The notes below the pieces were generated by a model. That model did no database searches, was not told the origin of the DNA, and saw only the letters and a program-made list of their open reading frames with translations. The position numbers and the translations under genes were made by a program. Of a stretch of DNA of 47,755 bases, positions 1 through 44,588 are shown piece after piece. Source of the DNA: a virus; IMG/VR virus record IMGVR_UViG_3300009136_000009, positions 1-47,755 of that record. One strand, written 5' to 3'. Position 1 is the first letter of the stretch, and every line of letters begins with the position of its first letter.

Positions 1-64
1 GGAGCATGAGGTTCTCATGGCGTTGGCTGATCTCTTCCTTCCAGCTCATCCAGTCAACCTTCAT
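1..64 (-). CDS. 5' fragment of the 94-aa membrane protein gene (copy of 46749-47033)
   Basis: This is the start and first 21 codons of the gene at 46749-47033, repeated because the contig overlaps itself. The start at 64 is preceded by an AGGAGG Shine-Dalgarno that is complete in this shortened junction form. It is an effect of circular assembly and not a second gene. Confidence 0.85.
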   Translation of the reverse strand, partial: MKVDWMSWKEEISQRHENLML

Positions 65-110
65 CTATCTCCTCCTGAGGTCTAGGACCTATGGGCATTC
101 TGATGCTCAT
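54..110 (-). CDS. 18-aa junction peptide of the shortened genome form
   Basis: ATG at 110 overlaps the stop of the upstream gene (ATGA). The frame reads MSIRMPIGPRPQEEIDEG and stops at 54. Its first 12 codons match the start of the 30-aa ORF at 47623-47715, and its last codons match the C-terminus of the 66-aa gene at 47023-47223. The 636-bp difference therefore fuses two reading frames in register. Whether it is made or useful is unknown. Confidence 0.35.
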   Translation of the reverse strand: MSIRMPIGPRPQEEIDEG

Positions 111-463
111 GTATCGTCTTCCTCATGTAGGTCTACACCTACGAATCGCTTACCCATATAATTCCGATTATCTTCAAAGTCTGGATCAAGACCAAGAGTT
201 ACCTGCATTCCAACCCATTTCCAGCTTGGACAAGAGGGAGCCACCACTCGATTGAGCCAATCTACTAGGGGCTCATCCTCTTCCCATTTGCGCACCATAC
301 CACGACCTAGGCGCTTGGTAAGGGCGTCGATCTGCTCTTTGGTATAGAGTTCCTCGGGCATGACGTTGAGGCGTAGCCAGCTCAGGAACACGTCCATAGG
401 ACCGTTCCAAAAGTCGAGAGCTATCTGAGGATATGGGTCTCTGCTAAACCTGAATTTAGACAT
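107..463 (-). CDS. Conserved-looking hypothetical protein, 118 aa
   Basis: Unrecognised acidic protein rich in Trp and Asp/Glu, with no signal or membrane segment. I chose ATG at 463, not the GTG three bases upstream, because the sequence reads GGAGGAGTGATG: the Shine-Dalgarno lies in the last two Glu codons of the upstream gene, whose TGA overlaps this ATG. The 3' end (107-150) is repeated at 47712-47755 by the contig overlap. Confidence 0.7.
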   Translation of the reverse strand: MSKFRFSRDPYPQIALDFWNGPMDVFLSWLRLNVMPEELYTKEQIDALTKRLGRGMVRKWEEDEPLVDWLNRVVAPSCPSWKWVGMQVTLGLDPDFEDNRNYMGKRFVGVDLHEEDDT

Positions 464-837
464 CACTCCTCCGTGTGGATTTTCTCGGTAGGGTCTCCAT
501 GACCTTCCTTGGGTATGTCTCGTCCAGTACCCATAAAGTACGCTCTGGCAATTGCGCGAAACCTATTTTCATCTGACCGTGTGTCTCCATGGTAGTCAAT
601 CCACAATGTCACACCATCATATTTCATGGTGCTTGGATCAGCGTACACCTCTTCCAACCACAAACGAGAAAGAGCCAAAGCTTCTCGCTCTGTGCATTGG
701 ATGGAAAAGGTCCAACTGTACTCAGGAGGCCCTGTTTCGGGTGCGCGGGCTCGCCACCATTCACGGATCTCATCATCACTGTACCAATCCCAGTAAATGT
801 GTTGGCGGCCATCTAGTGAGAGCATCTTCTTGGGCAT
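463..837 (-). CDS. Hypothetical protein, 124 aa
   Basis: Begins MPKKMLSLDG. It contains several Trp residues and an amphipathic central helix but no motif I recognise. The start at 837 follows GGAGGAG and overlaps the TGA of the gene upstream. The longer open frame to 873 lacks such a signal and would run deep into that gene. It ends in Glu-Glu, whose codons serve as Shine-Dalgarno for the next gene. Confidence 0.7.
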   Translation of the reverse strand: MPKKMLSLDGRQHIYWDWYSDDEIREWWRARAPETGPPEYSWTFSIQCTEREALALSRLWLEEVYADPSTMKYDGVTLWIDYHGDTRSDENRFRAIARAYFMGTGRDIPKEGHGDPTEKIHTEE

Positions 838-1237: not shown

Positions 1238-1458
1238 TACTCCTCCAAAACTAATCTAGCATGAGTACATCGGTAGCCACTCCTATACAAGTCTCTCCAG
1301 GATGGTGAATTACCACCTGCGGCACGAGACTCTCTCGCAGCCCACGTAATGAATGTTGTAATACAGCGGTGGCGTGTATTTGCATGTGTGCCCTCGATAA
1401 CACCTATACCAGGTAGTTCAATTACCCATACCTGCGCTGATTTGGCTGTGTTGCCCAT
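1237..1458 (-). CDS. Hypothetical protein, 73 aa
   Basis: Basic protein with three Cys and several His/Arg residues; no recognised family. Two adjacent ATGs exist (1461 and 1458). The second is better spaced from GGAGG and overlaps the TGA of the RuvC-like gene upstream. It ends LVLEE, again encoding the next ribosome site. Confidence 0.6.
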   Translation of the reverse strand: MGNTAKSAQVWVIELPGIGVIEGTHANTRHRCITTFITWAARESRAAGGNSPSWRDLYRSGYRCTHARLVLEE

Positions 1459-1979
1459 CATTCCTCCAGAAAGACACCCACGAGGGCAATACCAATAGCA
1501 TCACAGACAGCCTCTCGGTTCACCTTGATATCGTCAGCCAAGAAGTCTGGATCACCCACACGATCTCGCACAGCCTTTACCACCAATCTCTTGTCAGTCT
1601 TCTGACCTTTAGGTGTCTTGGGGATACCCAGCAAGGCTTTCACTTGCATCGGATGAACGTACATCGGCCTGATCCCTTCCAGGTTCAGTCGCACCGACAC
1701 ACCCCCAATGAGAAAGCCTTGCTGGATGAGCACTCCTGCATTTCTGCCATGGATAGGTACCTCGAGATAGACAGGCAACACTTTCCCGGCTAGAAGCTCC
1801 AGAAGTTGCTCGTGTACTGCCGTGACAATGTCGAGGATATCCGTGTCCTTGTCACTCTCAACGATAGCACACTCCAAGACGTTTAGGATCCTTGGCTGAC
1901 TACCGTTTAGAGACCTTGCGACCTCTAGCTTTGCGAGACCGCTTCTTCGCGGGCTTGGATCGACGCCGATCACATACAT
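1458..1979 (-). CDS. RuvC-like Holliday junction resolvase
   Basis: A 173-aa protein of the RNase H-like fold. It opens with MYVIGVDPSPRRSG (Asp7 as first metal ligand), has a Glu in YLEVP (about residue 73) and a late acidic position in AVCDAIGIAL (about 160), the usual RuvC catalytic spacing. Such enzymes cut branched DNA during recombination or before packaging. The start at 1979 places the IGVD strand at the N-terminus and overlaps the upstream XRE-like gene by about 80 nt. An upstream frame to 2018 has no ribosome site. Confidence 0.75.
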   Translation of the reverse strand: MYVIGVDPSPRRSGLAKLEVARSLNGSQPRILNVLECAIVESDKDTDILDIVTAVHEQLLELLAGKVLPVYLEVPIHGRNAGVLIQQGFLIGGVSVRLNLEGIRPMYVHPMQVKALLGIPKTPKGQKTDKRLVVKAVRDRVGDPDFLADDIKVNREAVCDAIGIALVGVFLEE

Positions 1980-2238
1980 CAGCCACCGCCTTTTCCAGAT
2001 CCAGGATACCCTCAGCAACCAGGATAGCTATGAATGGGAGAAACTCCAGACCCTGTCCTCTCAACTCGATAGCCGAGATATCCCACGGTGCGACACTTGA
2101 CAGGAACTTTCGCCTTGGGTAGTGCCCATTCAGCTCTTGGACAAACTCAGGACCTGACAGTCCTCGAGCTTCCCTTGCCTGACGAATCAAGTTTCCTACC
2201 GCGACCCTTTGCTCTTTGTCTAACTTTGGAATCGACAT
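1900..2238 (-). CDS. XRE/cro-like helix-turn-helix protein
   Basis: A 112-aa protein. Residues of about 10-60 (VGNLIRQAREARGLSGPEF and following) match the pattern of an XRE/lambda-repressor-type HTH. The last 20 residues are very basic (repeated Lys/Arg), which would help DNA binding. ATG at 2238 has GGAGG five bases upstream. It overlaps the helicase gene by 92 nt and the RuvC-like gene by 80 nt. It is the only HTH regulator I see in the window and a candidate ligand for the CTTGACAAG sites. Confidence 0.6.
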   Translation of the reverse strand: MSIPKLDKEQRVAVGNLIRQAREARGLSGPEFVQELNGHYPRRKFLSSVAPWDISAIELRGQGLEFLPFIAILVAEGILDLEKAVADVCDRRRSKPAKKRSRKARGRKVSKR

Positions 2239-3634
2239 TTGTGCCTCCAGCCTTTTCCTTAGTAACATCCGACAACGTCATTCGCTCATAATCATACCGC
2301 ACAGTGACCACGGGATTCCAGGGATTTTCTCTACCCTTGTCGAGCTTCCATCGCTGGATCCCACGCTCTTTCTCCTCCGCGGTCTGCATGATGCAAACGA
2401 CGACATCCCCTGTATGGATCTTACTGATATCTTCAGCAACATCCTCCTTGCCAAACTCTTCAGCACCAATGGTGATACGAGTTCCTTGCGAGGCAGTCCA
2501 GCCTGGTACATCATAAGCAGAGAGCTGTCGCCTAAACTCCCAGTAGATATCTCCAAGAACAACTCTAGGATCGGCCTTCCACTTACGCTGACCTCTTCCA
2601 AGGAGGTCAGCGTAGTCCAGTGTGACGAGATCTAAGGGACTGTGCTTAGCGATGAGCCCTTCAATTCGCTGCATCGACACTTTCTCGTGACTCAAGTCCT
2701 GGATTAGGAGCTGGCCACCCGTCTTCTTTGCACGAGCCATCGCCTGACGAATCAACTTAGGGTTTGCCCGAATCTCCTGCTTCGTCTTCCCCAGCAGTTC
2801 CATAGTGATGCGTTCTGCCACCTGTCGAGTACGGATCTCTAGGGTTACGTGTAGTGCTCGTTTACCCAAGAGAGTAGCTCTGACTGCTCGTCCGAGGAGA
2901 GCTGCCGTCTTACCACCACCGGAAGGGGCAATGAATATACCAAGCTCTCCAGGCCCAAGGCCTCCATCAAGGGCATCATCGAGACGCGCAACTCCAATAG
3001 GAACACGGCCAGACTGATCTCCTGGACGGAATAGTTCGGAGGGATCACCTTCAGCAAAGTCGAGTAGGCGCTTGTCCTCCGGGGTAAGCGCAAAAGCTGT
3101 GTACTTTTCCAAGCGCTGCTTAGTCTCCCAGGGATCCAGCTCCTGAGGCCGGAAGTCATGCTTCTGCATGATGTCTTCAGCCAGTGCCAAGAGGCCCTCT
3201 CGGATGACAAATCGCTCGAGGACCTCCAACTCGACCTTGCTGTCAGGAGGAGCCGTGGCTTCCCAGCGGTCAACAAGGATACTGACACGCTCTTCCCAGA
3301 GCTGCTTGGGGCAAACCTTCTTTGCCAGAATACGCAGCGTCCGCATGGGTATGTCCGCTGATCGCTGTTTCTCGCTCGAATAAACGGACTCGAGGGATTT
3401 GTAGAGGTAGAGGTAATCACCTCGAAACATCTCCGGCTCCAAATGGCTTACCAGCTGCCGGTACCTGTCTGGAATCCGCAGAGCTGCCAGCAGGACGAGT
3501 ACGAGATCCCCGTGGCTGCTTAGCTTTGGCTTGCTCTTTCTTCCAGTCTTCTTCCCAGCAGTGCCTGTGGTAGAAGCACCCGCGGCACTGCCAGTCTGGC
3601 TTTTGGTAGAACTTTTCCGGGACTTGGCCATCAT
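2147..3634 (-). CDS. DnaB-like replicative helicase
   Basis: A 495-aa RecA-fold ATPase. The first 40 residues are a Ser/Thr/Lys/Gly-rich tail. An N-terminal DnaB-like helical domain follows (HGDLVLVLLAALRIPD). Walker A is APSGGGKT (about 236-243), a Glu follows the next strand (HVTLE, 266), and Walker B is LVTLDYADLL (about 335-345). It should unwind DNA ahead of the family A polymerase. The start at 3634 or 3631 (two ATGs) follows AAAGGAG and lies 218 nt inside the upstream nuclease gene. A perfect 12-bp hairpin lies in its coding region at 2584-2614. Confidence 0.85.
   Translation of the reverse strand: MMAKSRKSSTKSQTGSAAGASTTGTAGKKTGRKSKPKLSSHGDLVLVLLAALRIPDRYRQLVSHLEPEMFRGDYLYLYKSLESVYSSEKQRSADIPMRTLRILAKKVCPKQLWEERVSILVDRWEATAPPDSKVELEVLERFVIREGLLALAEDIMQKHDFRPQELDPWETKQRLEKYTAFALTPEDKRLLDFAEGDPSELFRPGDQSGRVPIGVARLDDALDGGLGPGELGIFIAPSGGGKTAALLGRAVRATLLGKRALHVTLEIRTRQVAERITMELLGKTKQEIRANPKLIRQAMARAKKTGGQLLIQDLSHEKVSMQRIEGLIAKHSPLDLVTLDYADLLGRGQRKWKADPRVVLGDIYWEFRRQLSAYDVPGWTASQGTRITIGAEEFGKEDVAEDISKIHTGDVVVCIMQTAEEKERGIQRWKLDKGRENPWNPVVTVRYDYERMTLSDVTKEKAGGTNVDSKVRQRAKGRGRKLDSSGKGSSRTVRS
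2584..2614. repeat. Perfect intragenic hairpin, 12-bp arms, 7-nt loop
   Basis: TACGCTGACCTC and GAGGTCAGCGTA surround TTCCAAG. It lies just after the Walker B region of the helicase gene. One of a genome-wide set of long hairpins. Confidence 0.9.
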
Positions 3635-4334
3635 GGATACTCCTTTCAATGATTGCCAGCCGGCGAAGATCTGCAGCAAACGCCTCCTTACTCAGCTTGA
3701 ACCAGTAGTCTCGCCAAGGAAGTCCAGTGATCTTGTCCTCATCACCATTCACATTGTATACCAGCACACACAGAGCAGGTACCTTCTTATCGGGATGAAG
3801 CATGTTCCACATATTGCCATAGCGGTTGCCTTGGACTAGGTAAGACTTAGACCAATGCGTAGGGTCTTGGAAGGCGAGACCAGTAGTCTTGCGGTAAGAG
3901 AAGGTGTTAGTGGTCTTGACCTCGAACATAGCTTGGGGCTTTCGTAGCCTCTGACGCCAAAGTTGCCCATCAGGATGCCCCTGTAGAGTGACCTTGATGA
4001 TCTCACCATCCAGTTCAACGTCATAAGTCACTTCCAAGAGCTGTTCAGGGTTCCAGTTCTTGACATACCATGGAGTATATTGAGGAATGAGTACTCCACG
4101 GATATGATCGTGAAGCAAGTTTCCTAGCTCCATTTTCTCTCGGGTACGCGGGGTGAATGGCGTCCAGACTTTCGTGCCAGTGCGTCCGTAGTAGAGCTTA
4201 CGATCACATTCGTAGGTACTACTTACTCGGAAGAAATGGGAGCCCTCTCGTTGATCAGTAGCCCGGCCCGTGCGATTTCTTGTGCGGTGAACGGCTCGAG
4301 CCAGCTGGTTGTGAGCCCGTGCTCTTACTAGCAT
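3417..4334 (-). CDS. Cas4/RecB-like PD-(D/E)XK nuclease with Fe-S cysteines
   Basis: A 305-aa protein with the catalytic order of this superfamily: His in LLHDH (about 75), Asp in GHPDG (about 122), FEVKTT (Glu138, Lys140) and the QGNRYG helix (about 168). Four Cys sit as in AddB/Cas4 clusters: Cys43 (YECDRK) and C-x2-C-x5-C near residues 250-259. It probably acts as an exonuclease in recombination or replication. The start is uncertain: ATG at 4334 has AGAGGAA upstream, and GTG at 4415 would overlap the thioredoxin stop. The C-terminal 72 codons, including the cysteine cluster, overlap the helicase start. Confidence 0.75.
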   Translation of the reverse strand: MLVRARAHNQLARAVHRTRNRTGRATDQREGSHFFRVSSTYECDRKLYYGRTGTKVWTPFTPRTREKMELGNLLHDHIRGVLIPQYTPWYVKNWNPEQLLEVTYDVELDGEIIKVTLQGHPDGQLWRQRLRKPQAMFEVKTTNTFSYRKTTGLAFQDPTHWSKSYLVQGNRYGNMWNMLHPDKKVPALCVLVYNVNGDEDKITGLPWRDYWFKLSKEAFAADLRRLAIIERSIHDGQVPEKFYQKPDWQCRGCFYHRHCWEEDWKKEQAKAKQPRGSRTRPAGSSADSRQVPAAGKPFGAGDVSR

Positions 4335-4411: not shown

Positions 4412-4747
4412 TCACTCCCTGGGAACATCGCTAGTGCTCTCTTCCGTAGTTGTGCTTCTAGTACTTTGGGCATCGAAGGACATCCTTTCCTCCAGCCATT
4501 GGATGATTTGATCCTCACGGGCATTAGGACTGAATTGGATAAGGATATCCTTAGCCTCATCGAGCACGACAACCGTGGGAATCGCATCAATACGAAACTT
4601 CGCAGCCTCATGTCTAGCTGCAGGCTCCTCTAATCGGATGATCTCAAGGTCCAAATCATGTTTGACACAGAGGTCCTCGATAAGCTCTCCGCGAGACTTG
4701 CAGGTAGGACACCACTGACCAGTGAATAGTTTGAATGTTAGTGCCAT
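4412..4747 (-). CDS. Thioredoxin-like protein
   Basis: A 111-aa protein with the redox motif WCPTC at residues 12-16 and a cis-Pro region DAIPTVVV near residue 57, followed by an acidic Ser/Thr-rich tail. Family role: disulfide reduction, or a processivity factor as for T7 polymerase; either is possible beside replication genes. ATG at 4747 has AAGGG seven bases upstream. The upstream gene stops at 4750. Confidence 0.85.
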   Translation of the reverse strand: MALTFKLFTGQWCPTCKSRGELIEDLCVKHDLDLEIIRLEEPAARHEAAKFRIDAIPTVVVLDEAKDILIQFSPNAREDQIIQWLEERMSFDAQSTRSTTTEESTSDVPRE

Positions 4748-4749
4748 TG

Positions 4750-4929
4750 TCAACCCTTCTCATCCCGTAGCCAACCAATCAACTCTGAAGCCTCTCGACG
4801 CGTGAGTTGGTGCAGCTCACCTCGGTTGAATAGACCCTCCGACAAAGCGAAACGAGTGGAGTACCCAAGCTCTGCACATAGACTCTCGATGTATTCCTTC
4901 TGAGACTGGGTGATTACTAGCTGTCCCAT
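4750..4929 (-). CDS. Small protein with an EAS-x-LI helical motif, 59 aa
   Basis: Begins MGQLVITQSQKEYI and ends in LTRREASELIGWL. This resembles the short TKxEASxLIxxL domain seen as a stand-alone or appended module in phage and plasmid replication proteins. Its function is not established. ATG at 4929 overlaps the TGA of the 33-aa gene upstream (TGATG). An in-frame ATG at 4950 lies inside that gene. Confidence 0.6.
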   Translation of the reverse strand: MGQLVITQSQKEYIESLCAELGYSTRFALSEGLFNRGELHQLTRREASELIGWLRDEKG

Positions 4930-6457: not shown

Positions 6458-7363
6458 CTACCGGCTTCTACGCTTAGAGACCTTCCTTTTCGTCACCCCT
6501 TTTTTAGACACTTTGGATCTAGGTCCAAAGCGAGGCTTCTTCTTGACGACCTTGGTCTTTCTAGCAGGTGCTTTCCTTCTGCTAGTAGGAGGTCTTCGCC
6601 GTGGTGGTCCTGGTTGTGCTGTAGGCATGGAAGCTATCTCACGCAGCTCCTCGCGGAAACACTCACGCACAGGCAGCATATCCCCTACTTGAGCCTCGAG
6701 TACCTGAATGACCAGCGCACGCTCATAGTGCTTGACGAAGCTCGAGAGTGTTTGCACTTTCGACTCCCAATCAGGCACGACAATTGCCGAGGGATCGCAA
6801 TGCACAATCTCGTAGCTAATGCTACTTAGATCCTCTGGATTGCCCGTACGAATGATCTCCATGTCTCTACCGAGTACAGGATCAAAGATAGCCTCGCCAA
6901 ATCTGGTGTTGTGGTAGAGTTCCTTCAGCTTCTTGATGACCGTGACTGGCGTGGCTCCCCAGACCTTGACTTGGTTGTCAACGACGACGTTCGTAAGCCA
7001 TTGCACTTTAGGAGCAATGGCTTTGACTTCCTGCCCGCGCTTCTCGCAATAGGCAATCAGGTCACACACGGGGCAAGGTGTATCCAGATGATACTCTGAG
7101 CAAGTGATTGCCCTGTTTTTACCAGATCCATCGAGGCCTGGCCAAGCACTAGGTTTGTTGCCAACCCGTCGGTAGTGGCAACAGTGTCCAGTCCAGGGTT
7201 CCCGAGCATCCTCCCATGGACCGAGGAATCTGACACGATGCCAATTCCCATAGTCGGGCCAGTTGAACCAGAAGCCCCTATCACCGCCACGACCACCACG
7301 TACGGGAAACTTCAAGTTCTCGCCCATAGCAGCAGGATCAATTCTGCGCAGTTTTCCAGCCAT
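6458..7363 (-). CDS. gp32-like single-stranded DNA-binding protein
   Basis: A 301-aa protein. The core has a zinc-knuckle-like cluster (HCCHYRR, then CSEYHLDTPCPVCDL at about residues 63-103), similar in arrangement to T4 gp32-type proteins, with nearby aromatic residues. Unlike typical SSBs with acidic tails, the last 60 residues are strongly basic (Lys/Arg/Pro repeats). It would coat ssDNA during replication. The ATG at 7363 overlaps the polymerase TAA (TAATG) with GGAGG upstream; the longer frame into the polymerase gene is not needed. Confidence 0.7.
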   Translation of the reverse strand: MAGKLRRIDPAAMGENLKFPVRGGRGGDRGFWFNWPDYGNWHRVRFLGPWEDAREPWTGHCCHYRRVGNKPSAWPGLDGSGKNRAITCSEYHLDTPCPVCDLIAYCEKRGQEVKAIAPKVQWLTNVVVDNQVKVWGATPVTVIKKLKELYHNTRFGEAIFDPVLGRDMEIIRTGNPEDLSSISYEIVHCDPSAIVVPDWESKVQTLSSFVKHYERALVIQVLEAQVGDMLPVRECFREELREIASMPTAQPGPPRRRPPTSRRKAPARKTKVVKKKPRFGPRSKVSKKGVTKRKVSKRRSR

Positions 7364-9711
7364 TAGATTTCCTCCATTTCTGCCCAACAACGGCCAATAG
7401 TAACATCAACTGGGGTAGGTACGTCAATACCTATCTTGTGACCAAATGCCTGAACCACAGAATTGACATCCTCCATTACCTGGCGCATGACATTACCTAC
7501 TCGCTTGCGATCCTTCCACTTACACTCCACCAACACTGAGTCGTGAACTGCGCCATAGACCCAATCATCTGGTAATAATTCTCGTAATTTCTCATCCACG
7601 AGCACCATAGCCATGTTGCAGATCTCTCCAGCAGTCCCCTGGATAGGATGATTACAAGCTTGGCGAAGCATCTTATCGTAGCTCTGTGGACCAGCAGCAA
7701 AATTGAGAGCCAGGCGTCGCCGACGCCCAAAAGCGTTGGCGACCCAACCCTGGCTCAGTAGATCTTCTTTGATTTGTCGCTTCCAATCAAGGATGCCTGG
7801 GTACGTGGCCTGCCAATCTCGCATGTAACGCTGCGCCCAGGTCTCCGTGTTACCTGTGAGTCTCGCTAGTCGCCGAGCACCACCACCGTAGAGTACCATG
7901 AAGTTCACGGTCTTTGCGTGGGATCTCTCCTCGTCCGTGGGATCCCGCTTGAGTATGGTTCGAGCAGTCTCAGTATGCAGATCGCGCCCACGGGAATAGA
8001 CATCCAGCATCGCTGTATCCCTCGATGCCCATGCCATGACGCGCAGTTCAATCTGGGAGTAGTCTGCATGTACCAAGGCACGTCCGCGAGGTGCAACATA
8101 GATCTGTTTGATAGGAGCTGTCTTCTCTCTGGGTATATTTTGTTGATTCGGATCACTGGACGATAACCTCCCAGTCTTTGTGCCTGTGGGATTGTACGAA
8201 GGATGCACACGTTCATTGACATCGAGATTCTTTTGCACACCCTTGATATAGGTCCCTAATAGTTTACTTAGTTTACGATGCTCAATGATATTACTAATAA
8301 GATTACGAGACCTACGCTCAGTGAGACCTACAGCCACATCATCTTCAATAAACTCGAGCGCTTCTTTATCCACTGAGAGACCACCAGCTTTGGTACGCTT
8401 CTTACAGACGTAGCCTAAGTTTTCATATAAGGCAGCAGCGAGCTGTTTATTGGAACTGACCACTACATCTTTAGGTACACAGCGATGGATTGCTCTCTCC
8501 AGCTTGCGCTGTTGAGCTGTCAACTCGAGTTCCATAGCACCAATACGACTGAGATCGAGTTGGAAGCCACGAGATTGGATGTTCACCAGAGCAGAGACAA
8601 TACGCATCTGCTGCGCGTAGAGTGTCATCAGACCCTGGTCCTTGACCTTCTGTAACAGATACGGAAGAAGTATCCAACAAACAGCAGAGTCATAGGCACA
8701 GTACTCGAAGAGCTGTTCCTCTGGCAGCTCTCCGAGCTTCTCATTGTTGCGGTAGCTGATCACGTCTCGAGCATAGTCGCCATAGCCCGTATAGTGTGAA
8801 GCCAGCCATTTGAGAGCAAGAGGTTGGTTCTCATTCTCGATATGCGCTGCAACCATAGTGTCATCAACGGTCCCCGCATGTACATATCCATGCTTTTCCC
8901 GCAACCAGCTCAAATCGAACTTTACATTGTGTCCGACAAGTGCGGGCCTCCTTGCACCCAATGAAGTAATGAACCCATCGACATCTCGGGACACCCGTGA
9001 GACATGATCTTTCCCGCACCAAGATACACACAGGATGCGTCCACCCGGTTTGTAGGGTGAGAGTTGGGAAGTCTCGAGGTCGAAGGCCATCGAAGAGTAG
9101 AGTAGCTTCGGAGTCACCTTTTTGTGATAAGTCCACTTCACCAGCTCGGGCTTCACGTATTCTCTCTCCACCAGACGATTCAGATCGTCGCACAGAGGAG
9201 CTAGGTACTTCTTGTTGTAGAGCACAGCAGCTGGGTGATAGGTAGCAATCACGGGGACACCCATGTACTCCCAGGAGCGTATGCCTCTCTTGGCAGAGAC
9301 GCTGACACGCTCTTCCCCGGTAAGAGCACGAATTGCGAAGGTCCCCAGAACTATTAGGTGCTTGGGCTTGATTCTCGTGATCTCTGCCACTAGGTAGCGA
9401 TTGCATATCCGCATTTCCTTGGCTGTGGGGTTTCTATTTTCCGGTGGACGACAGCGCACAGCATTCGTGATGTAGCAGTCATCCTGAAGACCCATCTCCT
9501 CGATGAGCTGGCGAAGCAGCTTGCCCGAATCACCCACGAAGGGTTTACCCTGAGCATCCTCATGGCCACCAGGAGCCTCGCCAATAAACATGGCGTAGGG
9601 CTTCTTTGCCTTGCCCTCGCCATCAATGCGCACGCTCTTGCAGGTCTTCCACAAGGAGCAGCCTACTCCGTCTGAACAGCGTTCAGGTCTGTGACCTCTA
9701 GTCTTCGACAT
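7363..9711 (-). CDS. polA: Family A DNA polymerase with N-terminal uracil-DNA glycosylase-like domain
   Basis: A 782-aa fusion. Residues 1-190 form a family 4 UDG-like domain: cysteines near 12, 18 and 24, GEAPG (44-48), GKPFVGDSG, CRPPENRNP with Cys87 and Cys103, and YHPAA (about 158). Then a 3'-5' exonuclease: FDLET (Asp211, Glu213), GHNVKFDL (Asp266) and YCAYDSA (Asp341). The polymerase has motif A DYSQIELRVMA (Asp550), motif B with Lys600 and Phe604 (the Klenow Phe762 position) and motif C VHDS. Main replicative enzyme. Two ATGs (9714, 9711) follow GGAAGAGGG. A UDG-polymerase fusion is known from SPO1-type phages. Confidence 0.93.
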   Translation of the reverse strand: MSKTRGHRPERCSDGVGCSLWKTCKSVRIDGEGKAKKPYAMFIGEAPGGHEDAQGKPFVGDSGKLLRQLIEEMGLQDDCYITNAVRCRPPENRNPTAKEMRICNRYLVAEITRIKPKHLIVLGTFAIRALTGEERVSVSAKRGIRSWEYMGVPVIATYHPAAVLYNKKYLAPLCDDLNRLVEREYVKPELVKWTYHKKVTPKLLYSSMAFDLETSQLSPYKPGGRILCVSWCGKDHVSRVSRDVDGFITSLGARRPALVGHNVKFDLSWLREKHGYVHAGTVDDTMVAAHIENENQPLALKWLASHYTGYGDYARDVISYRNNEKLGELPEEQLFEYCAYDSAVCWILLPYLLQKVKDQGLMTLYAQQMRIVSALVNIQSRGFQLDLSRIGAMELELTAQQRKLERAIHRCVPKDVVVSSNKQLAAALYENLGYVCKKRTKAGGLSVDKEALEFIEDDVAVGLTERRSRNLISNIIEHRKLSKLLGTYIKGVQKNLDVNERVHPSYNPTGTKTGRLSSSDPNQQNIPREKTAPIKQIYVAPRGRALVHADYSQIELRVMAWASRDTAMLDVYSRGRDLHTETARTILKRDPTDEERSHAKTVNFMVLYGGGARRLARLTGNTETWAQRYMRDWQATYPGILDWKRQIKEDLLSQGWVANAFGRRRRLALNFAAGPQSYDKMLRQACNHPIQGTAGEICNMAMVLVDEKLRELLPDDWVYGAVHDSVLVECKWKDRKRVGNVMRQVMEDVNSVVQAFGHKIGIDVPTPVDVTIGRCWAEMEEI
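9665..9702. repeat. Direct repeat copy 1 (38 bp), at the polymerase 5' end
   Basis: 34 of 38 bases match 9939-9976. This copy encodes the HRPERC region at the start of the UDG-like domain. The two copies flank the 74-aa gene. Confidence 0.85.
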
Positions 9712-9922
9712 CATCCCTCTTCCAGTAAATGGAACTAGCACTCAGACGGATTCCATTTGGATAGATCCTCAATATCAGCTCCTTCACTGACATCTTAGTC
9801 AATTCTGTGGTAGAGAATTTACCTCCACCTGAGATGACGATTAGCGCACACAATTCCTCCAAGAATCTAGTAGACTCAGGATGGTACTCACGCGGGTGCG
9901 GAACCTTTTTCTTCTGCGGCAT
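9698..9922 (-). CDS. Hypothetical protein, 74 aa, in a repeat-flanked cassette
   Basis: Begins MPQKKKVPHPREYHP; a basic N-terminus followed by a helical region, no known motif. ATG at 9922 has GGAGGGG with good spacing. The open frame continues upstream without a stop but that part is a repeat of the polymerase gene start, so I exclude it. It overlaps the polymerase start by 14 nt. The gene lies between two 38-bp direct repeats, which suggests insertion or duplication. Confidence 0.6.
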   Translation of the reverse strand: MPQKKKVPHPREYHPESTRFLEELCALIVISGGGKFSTTELTKMSVKELILRIYPNGIRLSASSIYWKRDDVED

Positions 9923-10707: not shown

Positions 10708-11577
10708 CTACTCTCCTTTCAATGTCATAACCCAGAACTTCCTAGCCCACGACGCATCGGCTTTGAAGATGTCATCCCAATCCTTACCAAAGGCACTGGG
10801 AGGTAGAGCTACGTGGACGTTCCGGTACGGTCTGAGTAAATTATATAGCTTGACAGCGGCAGTGAGCTTGTCGTTATCGAAAGCGATGTAGATCCAGGCG
10901 TCTTCTGGCACACGTCCTAGAATCTCAGAAATTTGAGCTGGGGAGGTTGAACTGCCACAGGTACAAAGAACAAATCGAGTGTGGCGTCTCCACTGATCAT
11001 GCAACACTTCCCAAATCTTGAAGGCATCGAACATACCCTCGGCAATGACCACATGGGTACAGGTACCCTCGATATCATCACCAGCAATGCCACGCTCACC
11101 TTCGTTTTTATACTTGAGAGACTCTGAGGGACGCCAACTCTGGTACCCACACGGTTGACCACCCAGGTACATCGGCATAGCGAGCCTGTCCGCCTCTTTG
11201 AAGCGGGCAGGCTCGAAGCTGAGACGGAAAGGCTCGATCACTTCCTTGCTAATACCACGCTTGGCAAGCAGAGTAGCAAGGGAGGGCTGATCCGTGTCTG
11301 CGTCAGCTTGTCTGAGCATCTTCTCATAAGTGTCGGCATGGATAGCAACAGTCTGCTGCCTATGAATAGTAAAGACTGGAAAGGTAGTACCAGACCTATC
11401 TATACCACTCATACCACAGTGCCAACAGTGATATAACCCCTTCTTACCGCCATCCTCAAGACCTTGGTTCACGCTGAGTTTGTTATACCCGCAGGAAAGG
11501 CACTGATGGATAGCCTCATCACCGTTCTTCTCAATACGGACAAAATCTCCAATGACCTCATCACTTTTTCTTTGCAC
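10708..11577 (-). CDS. DNA primase (zinc finger plus TOPRIM)
   Basis: A 289-aa protein. An N-terminal zinc ribbon has C-x2-C near residues 26-29 and C-x2-C near 51-54. The TOPRIM core has VVIAEGMFDAF (Glu180) and IYIAFDNDK (Asp234, Asp236). It should make RNA primers for the family A polymerase with the separate DnaB-like helicase, unlike fused T7 gp4. GTG at 11577 has AAGGAAG seven bases upstream. A longer start at 11625 (ATG) lacks a ribosome site and would deepen the overlap with the upstream gene. A long hairpin lies at 11181-11215. Confidence 0.85.
   Translation of the reverse strand: MQRKSDEVIGDFVRIEKNGDEAIHQCLSCGYNKLSVNQGLEDGGKKGLYHCWHCGMSGIDRSGTTFPVFTIHRQQTVAIHADTYEKMLRQADADTDQPSLATLLAKRGISKEVIEPFRLSFEPARFKEADRLAMPMYLGGQPCGYQSWRPSESLKYKNEGERGIAGDDIEGTCTHVVIAEGMFDAFKIWEVLHDQWRRHTRFVLCTCGSSTSPAQISEILGRVPEDAWIYIAFDNDKLTAAVKLYNLLRPYRNVHVALPPSAFGKDWDDIFKADASWARKFWVMTLKGE
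11181..11215. repeat. Intragenic hairpin, 13-bp arms with one G-T pair, 9-nt loop
   Basis: CGAGCCTGTCCGC pairs with GCGGGCAGGCTCG, with one wobble pair. Inside the primase gene upstream of the TOPRIM motif. Confidence 0.85.
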
Positions 11578-12103
11578 GACGGTACTTCCTTCCAGTGAAT
11601 AAGGATCGCGCGTTACCCGGAACATAGGTGGACCAACGCAGACCTTGTTTCATTAGTAGATGACGAGAACTCTCATTACGATGAGCTAAGTAGCGCACTA
11701 AATGTCTCTGAGTAGCTCCACTATAAGTATTGAAGTCGCGGATAGGAACACGTTTGAACACAGCAAGAATCTCTTTGTGGGAGAAGTGCTTGCTGACAAG
11801 TGTAGCAATCTTCCTGCGCTTCGCCAGGAGCTGCTTGGGGTCAACATCTGGAGGTAAGTCTAGTTTGGTCTTTCGCATAGCCTCACGCAACTCGGTGCGT
11901 AGCCGCGTGCGCTCAGGTTTAGATAGATCCTCAGATTTGAAGTGTGACACCAATCGCTCGAGAGTTGCCTCGTAAGATACTGGGGAAGTGAAGGATCTAG
12001 ACAAGTAAGTCTTGACCAGGTTCCCGCTCTTACCTCGAGCTGCACATAGCTCGATCCGAATGCGGACATAAGGTGGTGAACGACCTGGGTAGCGAAGGCT
12101 CAC
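11561..12103 (-). CDS. Hypothetical basic protein, 180 aa
   Basis: Highly basic (Arg/Lys throughout, ending RRAKKK) with a central charged helical region (about 45-95). Likely nucleic-acid associated, but no motif identifies it. GTG start at 12103 with GGAG ten bases upstream, just after the TGA of the gene before. It overlaps the primase start by 17 nt. Confidence 0.6.
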   Translation of the reverse strand: MSLRYPGRSPPYVRIRIELCAARGKSGNLVKTYLSRSFTSPVSYEATLERLVSHFKSEDLSKPERTRLRTELREAMRKTKLDLPPDVDPKQLLAKRRKIATLVSKHFSHKEILAVFKRVPIRDFNTYSGATQRHLVRYLAHRNESSRHLLMKQGLRWSTYVPGNARSLFTGRKYRRAKKK

Positions 12104-18036: not shown

Positions 18037-18670
18037 GATTCCTGCGAAGAGCAGTAGCACTCGAAAGAAAGCTCGGCAGCGCGTCCTTCGAGACAAGAGC
18101 ATTCCCGTTGCGGTCATAGATCTCAAGGCGGCTAAGGCTCGTTTCCTCCAGATCTACAGTGACCCCCAAGACCTCCGCGATGAGCAAGACATCGCGGAGG
18201 AACTTGGTGTCCTTCCCTCTCAATTGGTTGAATGGCGGATGCAACCAGCTTTCTATGAACCTGGCACCCAGGCTTTTGACCGCGCTTTTCGCAGCAGCCT
18301 TGTTCCTCTCAGGAAGATACTTCTCAGGCAGGCCTTCAAGGGATCTCACGGAGCTATCAGCAAGCTCCTCGAGATGGCTGGCGTCTTGGAGGGTAAAGGC
18401 ACCAAGATCAACATCCTGAACATGGGGGGCAGTACCCCAGCGGATGCGTTTCTCAACAAGCTCACGGACGAGGAATTGGATGGGGAGATTGCTCTCAGGC
18501 TGCACGCCACTTCTCAAGGTGATGTAGTTCTCCAAGACGGTGCAATCGTTCCAGCCTCTGAAATTCAGGAAACAGACTATGTCGAACTCGATTGTCTCGA
18601 CCACGGTGTTGGCCGACGCAGAGTGGACTCCAAGAGATCGAAGAGAGAGGTTGGCACAGTGTCTGACTGA
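18014..18670 (+). CDS. terS: Terminase small subunit
   Basis: A 218-aa protein. Basic N-terminus, then a segment at about 45-80 (FLQIYSDPQDLRDEQDIAEE, then LGVLPSQLVEWR) that reads as an HTH, and a region resembling phage terminase small subunits (LLRQAFKGSHGAISKLLEMA). It would recognise packaging DNA and present it to the large subunit next door. ATG at 18014 after GGAGGAG. Contains a perfect 11-bp hairpin at 18172-18200. Overlaps the large subunit by 92 nt. Confidence 0.65.
   Translation: MPRQRNTKIPAKSSSTRKKARQRVLRDKSIPVAVIDLKAAKARFLQIYSDPQDLRDEQDIAEELGVLPSQLVEWRMQPAFYEPGTQAFDRAFRSSLVPLRKILLRQAFKGSHGAISKLLEMAGVLEGKGTKINILNMGGSTPADAFLNKLTDEELDGEIALRLHATSQGDVVLQDGAIVPASEIQETDYVELDCLDHGVGRRRVDSKRSKREVGTVSD
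18172..18200. repeat. Perfect hairpin inside terS, 11-bp arms, 7-nt loop
   Basis: CCTCCGCGATG and CATCGCGGAGG surround AGCAAGA. A packaging (pac) site is often inside terS, so this is a candidate. Confidence 0.85.
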
Positions 18671-20246
18671 GAAACAGCGCCGCATGGCGTTTCGATCTCT
18701 CTACTACTACTGTAAATACCTTCTTGAGTTTACAGAAATGGAGCTGCGGCCTCACTGGGAGCTATGCCAGTTCATCCAGAAGAACCTCGGCCTGGACATG
18801 CTCATCTTGCTTCCTCGTGGCAATTTCAAGTCCAGTATTATTTCAATTGCTTTGCCCATGTGGCTCCATTGGCGGGCTCGCAACTTGCGTATCCTCCTCT
18901 CCAGCTACGAGCTTCAGAATACCAAGAACTTCCTGGGACTCATCCGTGCGCACATTGAGCGTAACGACCTCTTCAGACGCATCTGTGGCAACTGGGAGAA
19001 CCCCGGGGAGGCTTGGCACACGACAGCGCTTTCCCTGGGCGGCCGCACCAAGTTCAAGGCAGAGCAGTCCCTCACCGCCAGCTCTATCAGAGTTACCAAG
19101 GTCTCTCAGCACTATGACTTGGCTATCCTTGATGATCTCCAGACTGACAAGAACATCAGCAGCAAGGAAATGATCGACCAGGTCCAGGACTACTTGGACC
19201 TCCTGCTTCCCATTCTCGATCCTCAAACCGAGGGACCCTTGGCACGGAAAAACCTGGTAAAACATGGACCTCGAATCATTGTAGGTACGCGTTGGCTCTT
19301 TGATGACATCTACGGTCGCATGATCTCAAAAGAGCTGAAGCGCCGGCGGGAAGGCAAGCCTCCAGCTCTTCAAATGCTGGTGCGGCGTGCCTACAACAAG
19401 AAGCGGACGAAGGTCTACTTTCCCACCAGGTTTCCCGTGGCGTATTTGGACTCCTTGCAGGAGGAGTCCAACATGAGTAAGTCTCACTTCTCTGCCCAGT
19501 TCTTGAATGACCCTTTGCCTGAGGTTGACCAGGTATTCAAGCTCTCAAACTTGGGTTTCTACCACTCAACTCATCGGGTAATGAAGGGTATCGTTAGACC
19601 GATGCCCAAATTGTTCCACAAGTTTACCGTACTTGACCCTAGTCGTGGAGAGTCGGACGATTCTGACTGGTCTGCGTTCGTAACCACTGCTGTAGACACA
19701 GATTGGAACATTTATAGCTGGGATGTCTTTCGTGACCGTATGATTGGGAACGAGCCGATCATCGAGAAGATGTTTGAGATCCACGAACTGCATAAGCCAC
19801 TGCGGTTTGGCGTGGAATCAGTGCTATTTCAGAAAAGTATCTATTGGGGCTTCAAACGAGCGTGTCGTGTCAAAGGTAAGTGGTTCCATGTACAACCTTT
19901 AGATACAGATAACAAGATTTCCAAGGACTGGAGGATCTCTGGTTTCGAGCCTTTTGTGACTGGGAATACGGTTTATTTGCGTGTAGAGGAAGAAACTGAC
20001 TTGACTCTTTCTAATGAGGAGCTTTATTATGCCCTCGTTGAAGGACAGGATACCTTGGCAGATGAGATGCTGCGGTTTCCCAGGGCTCAGACAAAGGACT
20101 GTCTCGATGCTCTAGCATACATGCCCCAGCTGATTCATCCTGCGAGAGACACTGCTCCTCAGGATCCCCCGGATGCGATGACATTCGACATGCTGAAGGA
20201 GAGGCTGGCCAGGAGAAACTCGGGGCTGTTGTCAGTTGGGCACTAA
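18579..20246 (+). CDS. terL: Terminase large subunit
   Basis: A 555-aa packaging motor. ATPase: Walker A-like LLPRGNFKSS (about 77-86), Walker B LAILDDLQT (about 181-189). Nuclease: VLDPSRG (Asp353), FGVES (Glu413) and TKDCLDA (Asp507/Asp510). It translocates and cuts DNA at the portal. ATG at 18579 with AGGAAACAG upstream; it starts inside terS. A perfect 10-bp hairpin lies at 19446-19471. Confidence 0.93.
   Translation: MSNSIVSTTVLADAEWTPRDRRERLAQCLTEKQRRMAFRSLYYYCKYLLEFTEMELRPHWELCQFIQKNLGLDMLILLPRGNFKSSIISIALPMWLHWRARNLRILLSSYELQNTKNFLGLIRAHIERNDLFRRICGNWENPGEAWHTTALSLGGRTKFKAEQSLTASSIRVTKVSQHYDLAILDDLQTDKNISSKEMIDQVQDYLDLLLPILDPQTEGPLARKNLVKHGPRIIVGTRWLFDDIYGRMISKELKRRREGKPPALQMLVRRAYNKKRTKVYFPTRFPVAYLDSLQEESNMSKSHFSAQFLNDPLPEVDQVFKLSNLGFYHSTHRVMKGIVRPMPKLFHKFTVLDPSRGESDDSDWSAFVTTAVDTDWNIYSWDVFRDRMIGNEPIIEKMFEIHELHKPLRFGVESVLFQKSIYWGFKRACRVKGKWFHVQPLDTDNKISKDWRISGFEPFVTGNTVYLRVEEETDLTLSNEELYYALVEGQDTLADEMLRFPRAQTKDCLDALAYMPQLIHPARDTAPQDPPDAMTFDMLKERLARRNSGLLSVGH
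19446..19471. repeat. Perfect intragenic hairpin, 10-bp arms, 6-nt loop
   Basis: TTGGACTCCT and AGGAGTCCAA surround TGCAGG in the terL gene. Confidence 0.85.
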
Positions 20247-20274: not shown

Positions 20275-22194
20275 ATGGCGGGGAAGTCTGAGGAAGAGCG
20301 GTACCAGAAATGGATTGATCGCATCAAGGAGCGGGAAGCTTTCTTGAAGGCGAAGATCCAGGACTGGAATCGGTACATGCGTCTATACCGTATGGCGCTG
20401 AGCCGCGAGGAGCTGTTAGGTGCTTCTGGTTCGGGTGGCGATACAGTCTGGTTGAACTACCACTTCGCTCTCAGTCGTATCATCCTGCCCTCCATCTACT
20501 TTCGGAACCCGGATGTTCTCATATCCCCACTGCAGAGTACTCCCCTTACCTACTGTGTGCTTCTTGAGAAGCTGATCAACAAGCAGCTGACTGACATCGA
20601 CTTTGATCTCGAGATGCGTAAAGTCATCTTTGATACTCTGTTTTGCGGTATCGGTATTATGAAGTTCGGGTATGCCCCGGCCCTTGACGGAACGATTGCA
20701 AAGACCACTCAGGATGAGTTTGCTGATGTGGCCATGACTCTCTTTGAGGAAGATCTCTGGGAGAAGCCCAAGGGGGTCTCATCCAAGACTGGCATCCTGG
20801 AGATCGACCAGCGTATTCCGCGGACATCTCCCTTCAGTATCAGAATTTCTCCTCGGCACTGGCTCTTTGATCCCATGGCGGCCACGGACAAAGAAGGTCG
20901 GTGGATGATTCATAAGATCTTGAAGCCCGTGGAGGATGTAAAGAAGTCCAAGTTCTATCCACGAGGACTGACCTCGGGGATCGAGGGAAATATAAGTCTG
21001 CGTGATGCCGCGGCTCTCAATGAAGTTCCTGGTGGCTACGCTTCGATGCAGGCTGGCTATGCCAAGATGCACGCCGACTTTGTGTATGTCTACGAGGTTT
21101 GGGATCGAGAAACTGACAAGCTGCTAGTACTCGATTCTTACAATATGGACCAGGGTACGAAGAAATTCATTCGAGAGGAAGATAATCCTTACGATATTGA
21201 TGGATTTCCGTTTGAAGTGCTTTGCTTCAATCCTGATCCAGAGACACCCTACGGTATTCCCGATGCCGAGACCTGGGAAAATCCTACTAACGCTCTGAAT
21301 CTCCTCAATACCATGCAGTATGAGCACGCTAAGCGGGCACTGCCCAAAACGCTGGCGCGTAAGATGGTTTTGACTCCTGAGGAGATGGCAAAGATGACAT
21401 CTGCTCGTCTGGATGCAGTGGTTGAAGTGGATGGAGAGATTTCGGATGTGGGTCCATTGCAGATGAGCACCATGAGTCCTGATCTCTATGGTTTGCGAGA
21501 AGTGTTGCGCAACGAACTGACTTTTCTCACTGGGGTGACTGAACAACGCAAGGGTGGTTCCCAGAAGTCTCAGACTGCTACTGAGGCAAGTATCATTGAG
21601 CAGCAAAGTCGTATTCGCGATTCTGACCGGCTGAGTGCTGTGAGTAAGTTTGTGACGCGGGCCGCACGAAAGATCCTCATGCTAGACAGGCAATTTCTTG
21701 AGCCAGATGAGATCGCGTTCGTGGTTGGTCCCGAAGCGATGAGCTTCTGGCAGGAGGCCGGCCCTGACGTTATCAAAGCTGAAGTAGACGTAAAAGTTCG
21801 GGTTGGATCTTCGGCTTTTATGAGTCGGGAAGTGCGTGCTAAGCAGCTTCTCGACTTTTTGAATCTCACGAGCGGTCTCCCAGATCCTCAGACTGGGGGG
21901 CCTTTGGTGGATGTCAAGGAGGTTGTGCGTCGAGTAGCCGAGGCTTTGGATATCGAGGACTACGAGCGCTTGTTGATCACACCTCCTACGGCTCCAGGAG
22001 TCTTGTCTACACGGATGCTTGGACCTACGGTGACGGCTGGCCAGGGGGGTCAGGGTGGTCCTCAGCAGTCTATGGCCAGGCGGGGTGGGGGCACCAACCT
22101 GGGCGACCAGCTCTCCGGTATTCAGAACCTGGGAGTGCGTCGTGCGCCTGGACGGCAAGCGCCCAATCCCACAGACCAGGGGGCTCCCGTATGA
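20275..22194 (+). CDS. Portal protein
   Basis: A 639-aa protein whose length and pattern fit large podovirus-like portals. N-terminal helical region, a central segment with SPRHWLFDPMA and GFPFEVLCFNPDPETPYGIP, and a C-terminal helical domain with TATEASIIEQQSRIRDSDR. The last 60 residues are Gly/Pro/Gln-rich. Forms the dodecameric head vertex ring. ATG at 20275 after AAGGGA. Directly follows terL. Confidence 0.85.
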   Translation: MAGKSEEERYQKWIDRIKEREAFLKAKIQDWNRYMRLYRMALSREELLGASGSGGDTVWLNYHFALSRIILPSIYFRNPDVLISPLQSTPLTYCVLLEKLINKQLTDIDFDLEMRKVIFDTLFCGIGIMKFGYAPALDGTIAKTTQDEFADVAMTLFEEDLWEKPKGVSSKTGILEIDQRIPRTSPFSIRISPRHWLFDPMAATDKEGRWMIHKILKPVEDVKKSKFYPRGLTSGIEGNISLRDAAALNEVPGGYASMQAGYAKMHADFVYVYEVWDRETDKLLVLDSYNMDQGTKKFIREEDNPYDIDGFPFEVLCFNPDPETPYGIPDAETWENPTNALNLLNTMQYEHAKRALPKTLARKMVLTPEEMAKMTSARLDAVVEVDGEISDVGPLQMSTMSPDLYGLREVLRNELTFLTGVTEQRKGGSQKSQTATEASIIEQQSRIRDSDRLSAVSKFVTRAARKILMLDRQFLEPDEIAFVVGPEAMSFWQEAGPDVIKAEVDVKVRVGSSAFMSREVRAKQLLDFLNLTSGLPDPQTGGPLVDVKEVVRRVAEALDIEDYERLLITPPTAPGVLSTRMLGPTVTAGQGGQGGPQQSMARRGGGTNLGDQLSGIQNLGVRRAPGRQAPNPTDQGAPV

Positions 22195-23675: not shown

Positions 23676-24971
23676 ATGAGTGTAGCCAATTTGTCGATGA
23701 CTGACGAGTATGATGCCTTACTTTCTACTACCCTTCGGAATTACAAGCCGAAGCTTGAGGACAATATCTTTCGCCAGTTGCCTCTGCTGTATTGGCTGAA
23801 CGACAAGGGTAGGAAGCGTACTCTGGATGGTGGTCTCTATATTCATGTTCCTTTGCTCTACGGTGAGAACACCACTGTTCAGAGCTACAAGGGCTATGAC
23901 CTGTTGGATGTCACTCCCCAGGAAGGTATCACACACGCGGTCTATCATTGGAAGAATGCTTCGGTGTCCATCGCGATCTCCCGTGAAGAGGAGCGGAAGA
24001 ACTCGGGGGCTCACCGGCTTATTGATCTCTTGGGAGCCAAGACGATGCAAGCGGAGAAGTCTCTGCAGTGGTGGTTGAATGATCTACTTCATGGGGTCTA
24101 TAGTTCCCATGAAAAGACCTTTGCCGGCTCTGATGTCAACACGAGAGACTCTGTGGGCGGTACGCGCATAGACTCGGCTGATGGCACGGGGGATGGTTTT
24201 ACCTCGCTGGACCACATGGTTCGGTCGGGTTGGGGTCTTGCTGACAATACAGCAACTACTGCTACTTCGCACATTGTTGGTGGTATTACCACTACGACTA
24301 AGTTCTCTGGCACTGTTGGTGTTGGCTACGTGGACTGGTCTAATGGTGATGCTGTCGAGATTACTGTCGATACTGACAACTTCGTGAATCCCTGGTGGTT
24401 GAACTACTCTAACCCAGGTTTCTCGCGTCTTCAGCGCGGTGCGGATGGTGGTCGTATACTCAATACGGTGCCGATCACTGAGTTGGACAACGCGTGCTCA
24501 TTTGGGACGGATAACGCGAACGTCGTCGCTGCAATGCGTTCGATGTACAATCGTCTTTCGGATGGTTCTGACACGCCGGACCTCATTCTTACGGGTCAGG
24601 GCCTGTACGAGGCCTACGAAGGCGCGCTTTCTCCGTTGGAGCGGTTCACCGACACCAAGCTTGGGGATGCTGGTTTCCAGAACCTCAAGTTCAAGGGTGC
24701 CACGATGATCTTTGACCACGGTATTTCGAGTGGTCTTCCGGCTATTCCGACAGCGACAGCTCCGGCGCAGCCGATGTACTTCCTCAACTCGGATTACCTG
24801 GAGTGGACCGTGGATTCCCAGTCGGATTTCATGCCCACTCCGTTCTATCGGCCTCATAAGCAGGCGGCTCGGGTGGCGCAGATTCTGCTCATGGCTCAGC
24901 TGACTACGAGTAATCGTAGCAAGCATGGAGTCATTAGCTTCAGCACCGCCGGTGTCTATACCCCAGCATAG
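23676..24971 (+). CDS. Major capsid protein
   Basis: A 431-aa protein with the pattern of a phage coat: LEDNIFRQLPLLYWLNDKGR at about 28-47, then GGLYIHVPLLYGENTTVQ and AVYHWKNASVSIAIS, later LYEAYEGALSPLERF. Position after scaffold and before small head proteins fits. Assumed HK97-type fold. ATG at 23676 with GGAGG. Confidence 0.8.
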   Translation: MSVANLSMTDEYDALLSTTLRNYKPKLEDNIFRQLPLLYWLNDKGRKRTLDGGLYIHVPLLYGENTTVQSYKGYDLLDVTPQEGITHAVYHWKNASVSIAISREEERKNSGAHRLIDLLGAKTMQAEKSLQWWLNDLLHGVYSSHEKTFAGSDVNTRDSVGGTRIDSADGTGDGFTSLDHMVRSGWGLADNTATTATSHIVGGITTTTKFSGTVGVGYVDWSNGDAVEITVDTDNFVNPWWLNYSNPGFSRLQRGADGGRILNTVPITELDNACSFGTDNANVVAAMRSMYNRLSDGSDTPDLILTGQGLYEAYEGALSPLERFTDTKLGDAGFQNLKFKGATMIFDHGISSGLPAIPTATAPAQPMYFLNSDYLEWTVDSQSDFMPTPFYRPHKQAARVAQILLMAQLTTSNRSKHGVISFSTAGVYTPA

Positions 24972-30570: not shown

Positions 30571-30948
30571 ATGGCTGACTTGCTTGTGCAACAGATGCTG
30601 CCAATGGCCAGGTTTCGTTATCCGAACACTTGGAAAATGACAGCTGTTGCTGGGGCTTCTCCACAGGCTAACCAGGTAATTGCCACGGGTGTGGCGTCCA
30701 AGCACAACGTGATTGGGAAATTGGTAGTTAGCAATAATGGTGCTGCCAAGGCTACGGTAGCGCTCAATTGGGAAGATGGTTCTGTCTTTCTGAGGTTTAC
30801 TGTTCCGGCAGAGGGTGTAACTCTCGAGAACTTCATTGGTATTGAGCCTGTATCGGCGGCAGCTGACAAGGATCTGCATGCAGATGTTACGTCTGATGAG
30901 ACGATTGCTGTAGACATTAGCTGTGGTTACTTTGAGGTGCCAGTCTAA
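30571..30948 (+). CDS. Small beta-sandwich virion protein, paralogue 3, 125 aa
   Basis: Contains NVIGKLVVSNNGAAKATVAL, VFLRFTVPAEG, and VDISCGYFEV, the same strand order as the genes at 27140 and 30139. ATG at 30571 after AGGGAGGGG. Stop overlaps the next ATG (TAATG). Confidence 0.5.
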   Translation: MADLLVQQMLPMARFRYPNTWKMTAVAGASPQANQVIATGVASKHNVIGKLVVSNNGAAKATVALNWEDGSVFLRFTVPAEGVTLENFIGIEPVSAAADKDLHADVTSDETIAVDISCGYFEVPV

Positions 30949-32594
30949 TGGACTTTGGTGGTAGATCAGAAAATGTCTTCTCCATCCAGGACTTTGGTGG
31001 TTACACCACAAAGACTTCTGGCGAAGCTGGGATGCTTGTAGATCGAGGAGAGGAGTACTCCCCCTATCGTAGTCGTGGTTTTTTCGTGGATAGCTTCGGG
31101 AAGCTGCTGCGCGCTCGTGGGTGGAGCCAGATTTGCCAGCTCTTTGGCCACACGGAGATGTCCCAGGTTCATGGGATGCACTATTGGCGCGGCGGTGGTG
31201 TGGGTAGTACGGTTGTCTTAGCTGGCACATTTGGTTTGAAGCACGGGCGGGTGGCTCGTATTGATGATCTCGCTGCTGATGCCTGCTACTATAAGTGGAT
31301 TGCCATGACTCAGATTGGTCCTACTTGGATGAGTCAGCCGTCTACTGATCCTGGTACGAATGAGGGACCTGCGTACCTCTACGGATGTTTTGCGGAGTTT
31401 CGTGATCGGCTCTACTACTGTAATGGTATTGACTGGCCTGTCAGGATTGATGGGCTGCACCACTTGTTTGCTAAGTCTACTTTTGAGCATTCTGGACAGA
31501 CTGGTCCTGTTTATTCGGCTATGGGTGTGTTCATGCCTACATTGACTACTGATGCTACGGCTTTTGCTGCCGTGCGAACGAAGCTCCAGGGTCTTCGTGC
31601 TGATTCCAGCCAGGTCAATGTATACGGTAGAGCAACTTATGGTGTCTCGGTACTCTCAAAATACGGAGAGAGTCCTGCTACCATGCTTCCCCCGCCGGCA
31701 CAGCCTGCTTCGGGCGGTGCTCCAGAAGGCACAGCACCGATTTTCTATGTAGCGGATTGGACGAAGTATGCTGACTATATTACAGCTGTTCGGATCTATC
31801 GTTTGCCTGCAGTAGGCACAGTAATGCAGTATGTCGGAGAGATTCCTCGAGGTGACTACTCTTTCATGGACACCATGGCTGATGGCGAGTTGGGTTACTC
31901 TGTTCCGACGGACACGGGACTTCCCTCGAATTTCCGTTTGCTGGCTACGTTTGAAGATAGGATGTTTGCCGTGGGCGGGTTTGGGAATCCTAACAGGGTA
32001 GCCTGTTCCAAGGCAGGCTACCCTGATGTGTGGCCAGCACTCTTTGAGATTCAATTAGCAGCATCTCTGGGTACTCGCATGGTTACTCAAATGAAGGTGC
32101 TCAATGGCGCTCTTTACTTGTTTCTGGACGAGGGTATCCTCAGGATGTACGGCTCGAGCCCGGAGAACTATGGCTTTAGCCCGGTCTCTGAGTTTATTGG
32201 GTGCATTGCTCCTAAAACTATGGTGTCTCATACAGATGGTGTTGTCTTTCTTAGCAAGGATGGTCCCCACTTCTTCAATGGATCCCAGCTTCGCAAGATC
32301 ACTGAGCACCTGGATAATGTGCTGGATGGTGCTACCCCAGGTTCCATGGATTGGTATCGGGCATGTGGGGTAGCTTCCAGAGAGTACTACTACATTAGCT
32401 ACAGGGATGATGGTCCTCGGAAATGGCTGGATGCAGCGAATCCTCCTGTAGCGGGAGATGAGCCTAATCGTACTTATAAAGTCAATATGAACAATGGTCG
32501 AGTGGGTGTGATAGATGACTGGGCTTTCAGTTTGAGTACGTCGTATGAGGGTACCGAGTCTTTGGTGATTGGACACAATAAGTTGAGTGCCTGA
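30948..32594 (+). CDS. Tail hub or stabilisation protein with beta-propeller-like repeats, 548 aa
   Basis: Position and repeated motifs (GTFGLKHGRVARIDD, FEDRMFAVGG, LNGALYLFLDEGILRMYG, DGVVFLSKDGPHFFNGSQL) suggest a propeller similar in role to P22 gp10 or T7 gp12. It would close the short tail. Contains a perfect 12-bp hairpin at 31994-32025. TAATG coupled. Confidence 0.55.
   Translation: MDFGGRSENVFSIQDFGGYTTKTSGEAGMLVDRGEEYSPYRSRGFFVDSFGKLLRARGWSQICQLFGHTEMSQVHGMHYWRGGGVGSTVVLAGTFGLKHGRVARIDDLAADACYYKWIAMTQIGPTWMSQPSTDPGTNEGPAYLYGCFAEFRDRLYYCNGIDWPVRIDGLHHLFAKSTFEHSGQTGPVYSAMGVFMPTLTTDATAFAAVRTKLQGLRADSSQVNVYGRATYGVSVLSKYGESPATMLPPPAQPASGGAPEGTAPIFYVADWTKYADYITAVRIYRLPAVGTVMQYVGEIPRGDYSFMDTMADGELGYSVPTDTGLPSNFRLLATFEDRMFAVGGFGNPNRVACSKAGYPDVWPALFEIQLAASLGTRMVTQMKVLNGALYLFLDEGILRMYGSSPENYGFSPVSEFIGCIAPKTMVSHTDGVVFLSKDGPHFFNGSQLRKITEHLDNVLDGATPGSMDWYRACGVASREYYYISYRDDGPRKWLDAANPPVAGDEPNRTYKVNMNNGRVGVIDDWAFSLSTSYEGTESLVIGHNKLSA
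31994..32025. repeat. Perfect intragenic hairpin, 12-bp arms, 8-nt loop
   Basis: CAGGGTAGCCTG and CAGGCTACCCTG surround TTCCAAGG. Same 12-8-12 geometry as 25621-25652 and 42289-42320. Confidence 0.9.
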
Positions 32595-44560: not shown

Positions 44561-44588
44561 TTACCTCTCTGCCTTCTTGAAGGCGGTT
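44561..44588. repeat. 28-bp direct repeat, copy 1
   Basis: Identical to 45201-45228. Contains GCCTTCTTGAAGGC, a 6-bp hairpin, and the GAGAGGTAA used as ribosome site. In the frame of copy 2 it still reads TAFKKAER plus stop, a fossil gene end. Confidence 0.9.

Follow-up and report, generated by a model that had tools for sequence, protein, structure and literature searches.

Why do the two ends of a virus record classed as linear repeat each other in two blocks, and why does one end contain 636 bp that the other lacks? The window, i.e., the whole stretch of DNA analyzed here, is the complete virus record IMGVR_UViG_3300009136_000009 (47,755 bp), which IMG/VR classes as linear. Positions 1-77 are identical to 46970-47046, and the next base differs (A at 78, T at 47047). 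Positions 75-150 are identical to 47680-47755, and the preceding base differs (C at 74, T at 47679). The 3 bp CTG stand at the joint of both copies; only the right copy contains the additional 636 bp (47047-47682). Because CTG is shared, the difference has four equivalent placements, from 47044-47679 to 47047-47682. The original prediction that the first 150 bases join 46970-47046 to 47680-47755 at CTG, skipping 636 bp, was confirmed as exact by a script check and by blastn. When the first 400 bases were compared with the window by blastn, these end matches were their only long matches elsewhere, with E values of 1e-34 to 1e-36 that exclude chance. An 81-bp match at 98.8% in the blastn output corresponds to the 77-bp match followed by one mismatch and three chance matches. 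The short junction was absent from every other record searched.

The source of the record is a tailed phage (Table 1), possibly podovirus-like as judged from its match to internal virion proteins. One of its predicted proteins, encoded at 7363-9741 (-), combines an N-terminal domain of the uracil-DNA glycosylase superfamily (PF03167, E 6e-32) with a 3'-5' exonuclease domain and a family A DNA polymerase. Known relatives are distant, with identities of about 20-35% for the terminase and capsid matches among 50,697 phage records. A scan of IMG/VR with short exact peptide patterns, which reach close relatives only, revealed no relative of the record. Patterns for the terminase, the DNA polymerase, the capsid and genes A, B, C and D found nothing close among viral contigs, nor did the capsid pattern in bacterial genomes. 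As no close relative was found, the long and short alleles could not be polarized by comparison with relatives.

To account for the geometry of the ends, we built in silico de Bruijn graphs from both implied circles (47,605 and 46,969 bp), with k from 70 to 83. At k = 77, the fork falls at the 77-mer 1-77, and the branches meet again at the 77-mer 75-151. A contig consisting of the short branch, the common genome and the long branch is then predicted to start at 1 and end at 47756, compared with the observed 1 and 47755. At k = 76, the predicted start is 2 and the predicted end 47755. None of the simulated values of k fits both ends exactly, and k = 76 or 77 fits them to within one base. The k-length end matches beside the indel that characterize a k = 77 bubble were found, the left one measuring 77 bp and the right one 76, one base short. 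A k-mer of 77 is a common largest k-mer of assemblers.

The coexistence of a full and a deleted form is thus the best-supported reading of the contig ends. Probably, the contig covers slightly over one turn of a tailed-phage assembly that closes into a circle, from a population with two alleles at one locus that are one illegitimate deletion apart. Most likely, the sample contained two near-identical strains, both of which the assembler traversed. The long allele would carry genes C and B on a 47,605-bp circle, the short allele would lack the 636 bp and form a 46,969-bp circle, and together they would create a bubble in the assembly graph. The contig would start with the short branch, cross the remaining genome and finish with the long branch, and its two ends would therefore display both alleles of one place. 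Both alleles would be real molecules. Of the two possibilities raised by the original prediction, a full and a deleted form or a mobile segment, the former is favored by bubble-length matches corresponding to a k of about 77 and by flanking genes that are intact in the short allele.

Table 1. Coordinates of the features discussed, in the numbering of the 47,755-bp window.
Feature	Position	Strand	Remarks
Left-end copy of pre-indel sequence, fork k-mer of assembly graph	1-77		Identical to 46970-47046; exactly the fork 77-mer in simulation
Left-end copy of post-indel sequence	75-150		Identical to 47680-47755; 76 of 77 bases of the join k-mer; short-form junction at 77/78
Gene D, 119 aa, upstream neighbor	107-466	-	Intact in both forms
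RuvC-like resolvase	1458-2018	-	
DnaB-like helicase	2147-3679	-	
Family A DNA polymerase with N-terminal uracil-DNA glycosylase domain	7363-9741	-	
Primase	10708-11625	-	
Large terminase subunit	18540-20246	+	
Portal	20275-22194	+	
Major capsid protein	23676-24971	+	
Protein matching internal virion proteins	30948-32594	+	
Tail-fiber-like protein	39914-43087	+	
SpoU-type RNA methylase	44587-45078	-	PF00588 E 3e-17; no PHROG match at E 0.01
Gene A, 94 aa, no family match	46749-47033	-	Start codon and AGGAGG site kept in both forms
Right-end copy of pre-indel sequence	46970-47046		Contains gene A start and ribosome-binding site
Gene B, 66 aa, phrog_16915 (function not assigned)	47023-47223	-	Short form retains only the last 8 codons, stop included
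Segment in long form only, 636 bp	47047-47682		G+C 44.7%, in lowest 0.6% of 636-bp windows
Gene C, 136 aa, two in-frame units of about 66 aa each	47220-47630	-	Wholly missing from short form
Hairpin between genes D and C, long form, 10/11 pairs	47673-47714	-	One arm crosses breakpoint, cut in short form
Right-end copy of post-indel sequence	47680-47755		

The genes at the locus all point leftward, in the long-form order D (continuing from the right end), C, B, A. Genes C and B overlap by 4 bp and genes B and A by 11 bp; in the short form, 42 nt separate the end of gene D from gene A. Gene C consists of a small gene duplicated in tandem and in frame, its two units being 72% alike in DNA and each terminating in YTKAEVDAMI. 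A similar motif, YTKEQIDAL, is found in gene D. The second half of gene C starts with its own ATG, so the loss of a stop codon may have joined two genes into one. It has no Pfam match and weak PHROG matches only, including one to a scaffolding protein, and when folded alone it yielded a helical model of low confidence (pLDDT 52).

Gene B was assigned to its PHROG family at E 5e-7, and Pasteurella phage Pm86 encodes a relative (E 4e-3). Weaker look-alikes in Mesyanzhinovviridae phages, each non-significant, align at the same positions. Five viral loci with a gene B match have only the 10-residue stretch ALCNDGTVWY in common with it; four of the five also weakly match (24-27%) the window frame 4415-4759 (-), and the gene order around gene B is not shared. 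A promoter scan returned no more sites than were obtained with shuffled sequences.

How would the two alleles have arisen? Most likely, a single illegitimate deletion by microhomology or replication slippage separates them, and it would have taken out the whole of gene C and almost all of gene B, leaving gene D on one side and the ribosome-binding site of gene A on the other. The 3-bp microhomology is weak by itself, as at least 3 bp are found in 5.9% of random 636-bp deletions in the window. Three features weakly favor derivation of the short allele from a long ancestor. The similarity between ORF18 of Pm86 (LPDIPQDE) and gene B (LPDIPQEE) passes the breakpoint, by only two residues, into sequence common to both forms, which weakly favors a deletion. 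The overlap between genes B and A also favors a deletion, because an insertion would have had to create it by chance. Similarly, the arm of the hairpin that lies over the other breakpoint is lost in the short form, which argues weakly in the same direction. The hairpin is only suggestive, since 5.8% of random points equal its statistic, and its folding z is about -1.5. It appears decidedly unlikely that the two forms represent a maintained polymorphism, or a recurrent deletion prompted by the hairpin, with genes C and B under opposing selection, e.g., for host-dependent functions, so that both alleles persist.

We also considered that the short junction might be a laboratory chimera, generated by template switching at CTG during amplification or PCR, that survived the assembly of a sample containing the long phage only. 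This is unlikely, as assemblers normally prune a singleton chimera for its low coverage, and the breakpoints spare both neighboring genes and the ribosome-binding site of gene A. The 3-bp microhomology and the short distance are also found in amplification chimeras, and in a study of multiple displacement amplification (MDA), complementarity of 2-21 nt occurred at over 70% of the chimeric junctions (PMC1855051). However, the same study reports direct joins under 10 kb in only 11 of 475 chimeras, 85% being inverted, and a short-range direct join would therefore be an uncommon kind of chimera (PMC1855051).

Alternatively, the 636-bp segment might be a mobile element that some of the phages carry, with CTG as its target duplication. 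This second possibility of the original prediction has become highly improbable. In its favor are the presence or absence of the segment, the possible 3-bp duplication, a low G+C content (44.7%; Table 1) and the precedent of very small phage elements, e.g., the 439-bp MPME1 (PMC3029335). On the other hand, the two ends match as inverted repeats no better than expected by chance, the best 15-mer end match comprising 5-6 of 15 positions compared with mostly 6-8 in random 636-bp windows. The segment encodes no recognized transposase, integrase or endonuclease, as Pfam searches gave nothing and PHROG searches gave only families with no assigned function and the weak scaffolding-protein match to gene C. 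An encoded mobile protein is not required of elements mobilized in trans. The segment is also single copy in the record, relatives of gene C were found neither in IMG/VR viral contigs by pattern scan nor in phage records by tblastn, and the coding end of gene B lies outside the segment, overlapping the neighboring gene. With inverted repeats, a mobile protein and extra copies all missing, we rejected the mobile segment on its anatomy. Still less probable is a truly linear molecule with unequal terminal repeats, the right one carrying the additional 636 bp. Flanking sequences do occur at both ends, as in direct terminal repeats, but a single molecule normally has two identical terminal repeats, and the record ends inside a run of leftward genes. 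Moreover, matches of 77 and 76 bases beside an indel have the geometry of k-mers, unlike that of a packaging site, and unequal repeats leave the one-k-mer length of the matches unexplained.

Three known systems come close to the present case. In the assembly-graph branches of viral metagenomes that constitute the COBRA problem (PMC10914622), contig ends share about one k-mer at the branch point, as they do here. In the present case, strain differences would cause the branch, and both branches of the bubble would lie on the two ends of a single contig, which is why it looks linear rather than circular. In the mycobacteriophages Island3 and Brujita, small genes annotated without a function were gained or lost between syntenic neighbors that were left functional (PMC3029335). 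The present locus is similar, except that both states are inferred to occur in a single sample and that only 3 bp are shared at the breakpoints, compared with about 50 bp for Island3 gene 68 (PMC3029335). The MPME elements likewise measure a few hundred bp and are present or absent in near-identical phages (PMC3029335); in contrast to them, our segment has neither inverted repeats nor an extra copy, and one of its genes runs out into the neighbor.

The record contains other repeats. A 28-bp exact direct repeat (44561-44588 and 45201-45228, 640 bp apart) flanks a cassette with the SpoU-type RNA methylase gene and encodes the end of the upstream gene. This arrangement resembles the case of Island3 gene 68 (PMC3029335), and the cassette is a possible second site of gene gain or loss. 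In two leftward genes, the ribosome-binding site and the start both fall within an 18-bp exact repeat, TAGACATCACTCCTCCGT, at 457-474 and 1013-1030.

Most likely, then, the 636-bp difference is ordinary micro-variation between phage strains seen through a quirk of assembly, rather than a new element, and the phage genome, of about 47.6 kb, is probably complete. Our observations suggest that some of the contigs listed as linear in IMG/VR are circular maps, one full turn long, with two alleles of a single locus at their ends. Such records would be recognizable automatically by one-k-mer end matches separated by one indel. They could be reclassified as complete genomes and could provide information on gene gain and loss within populations.
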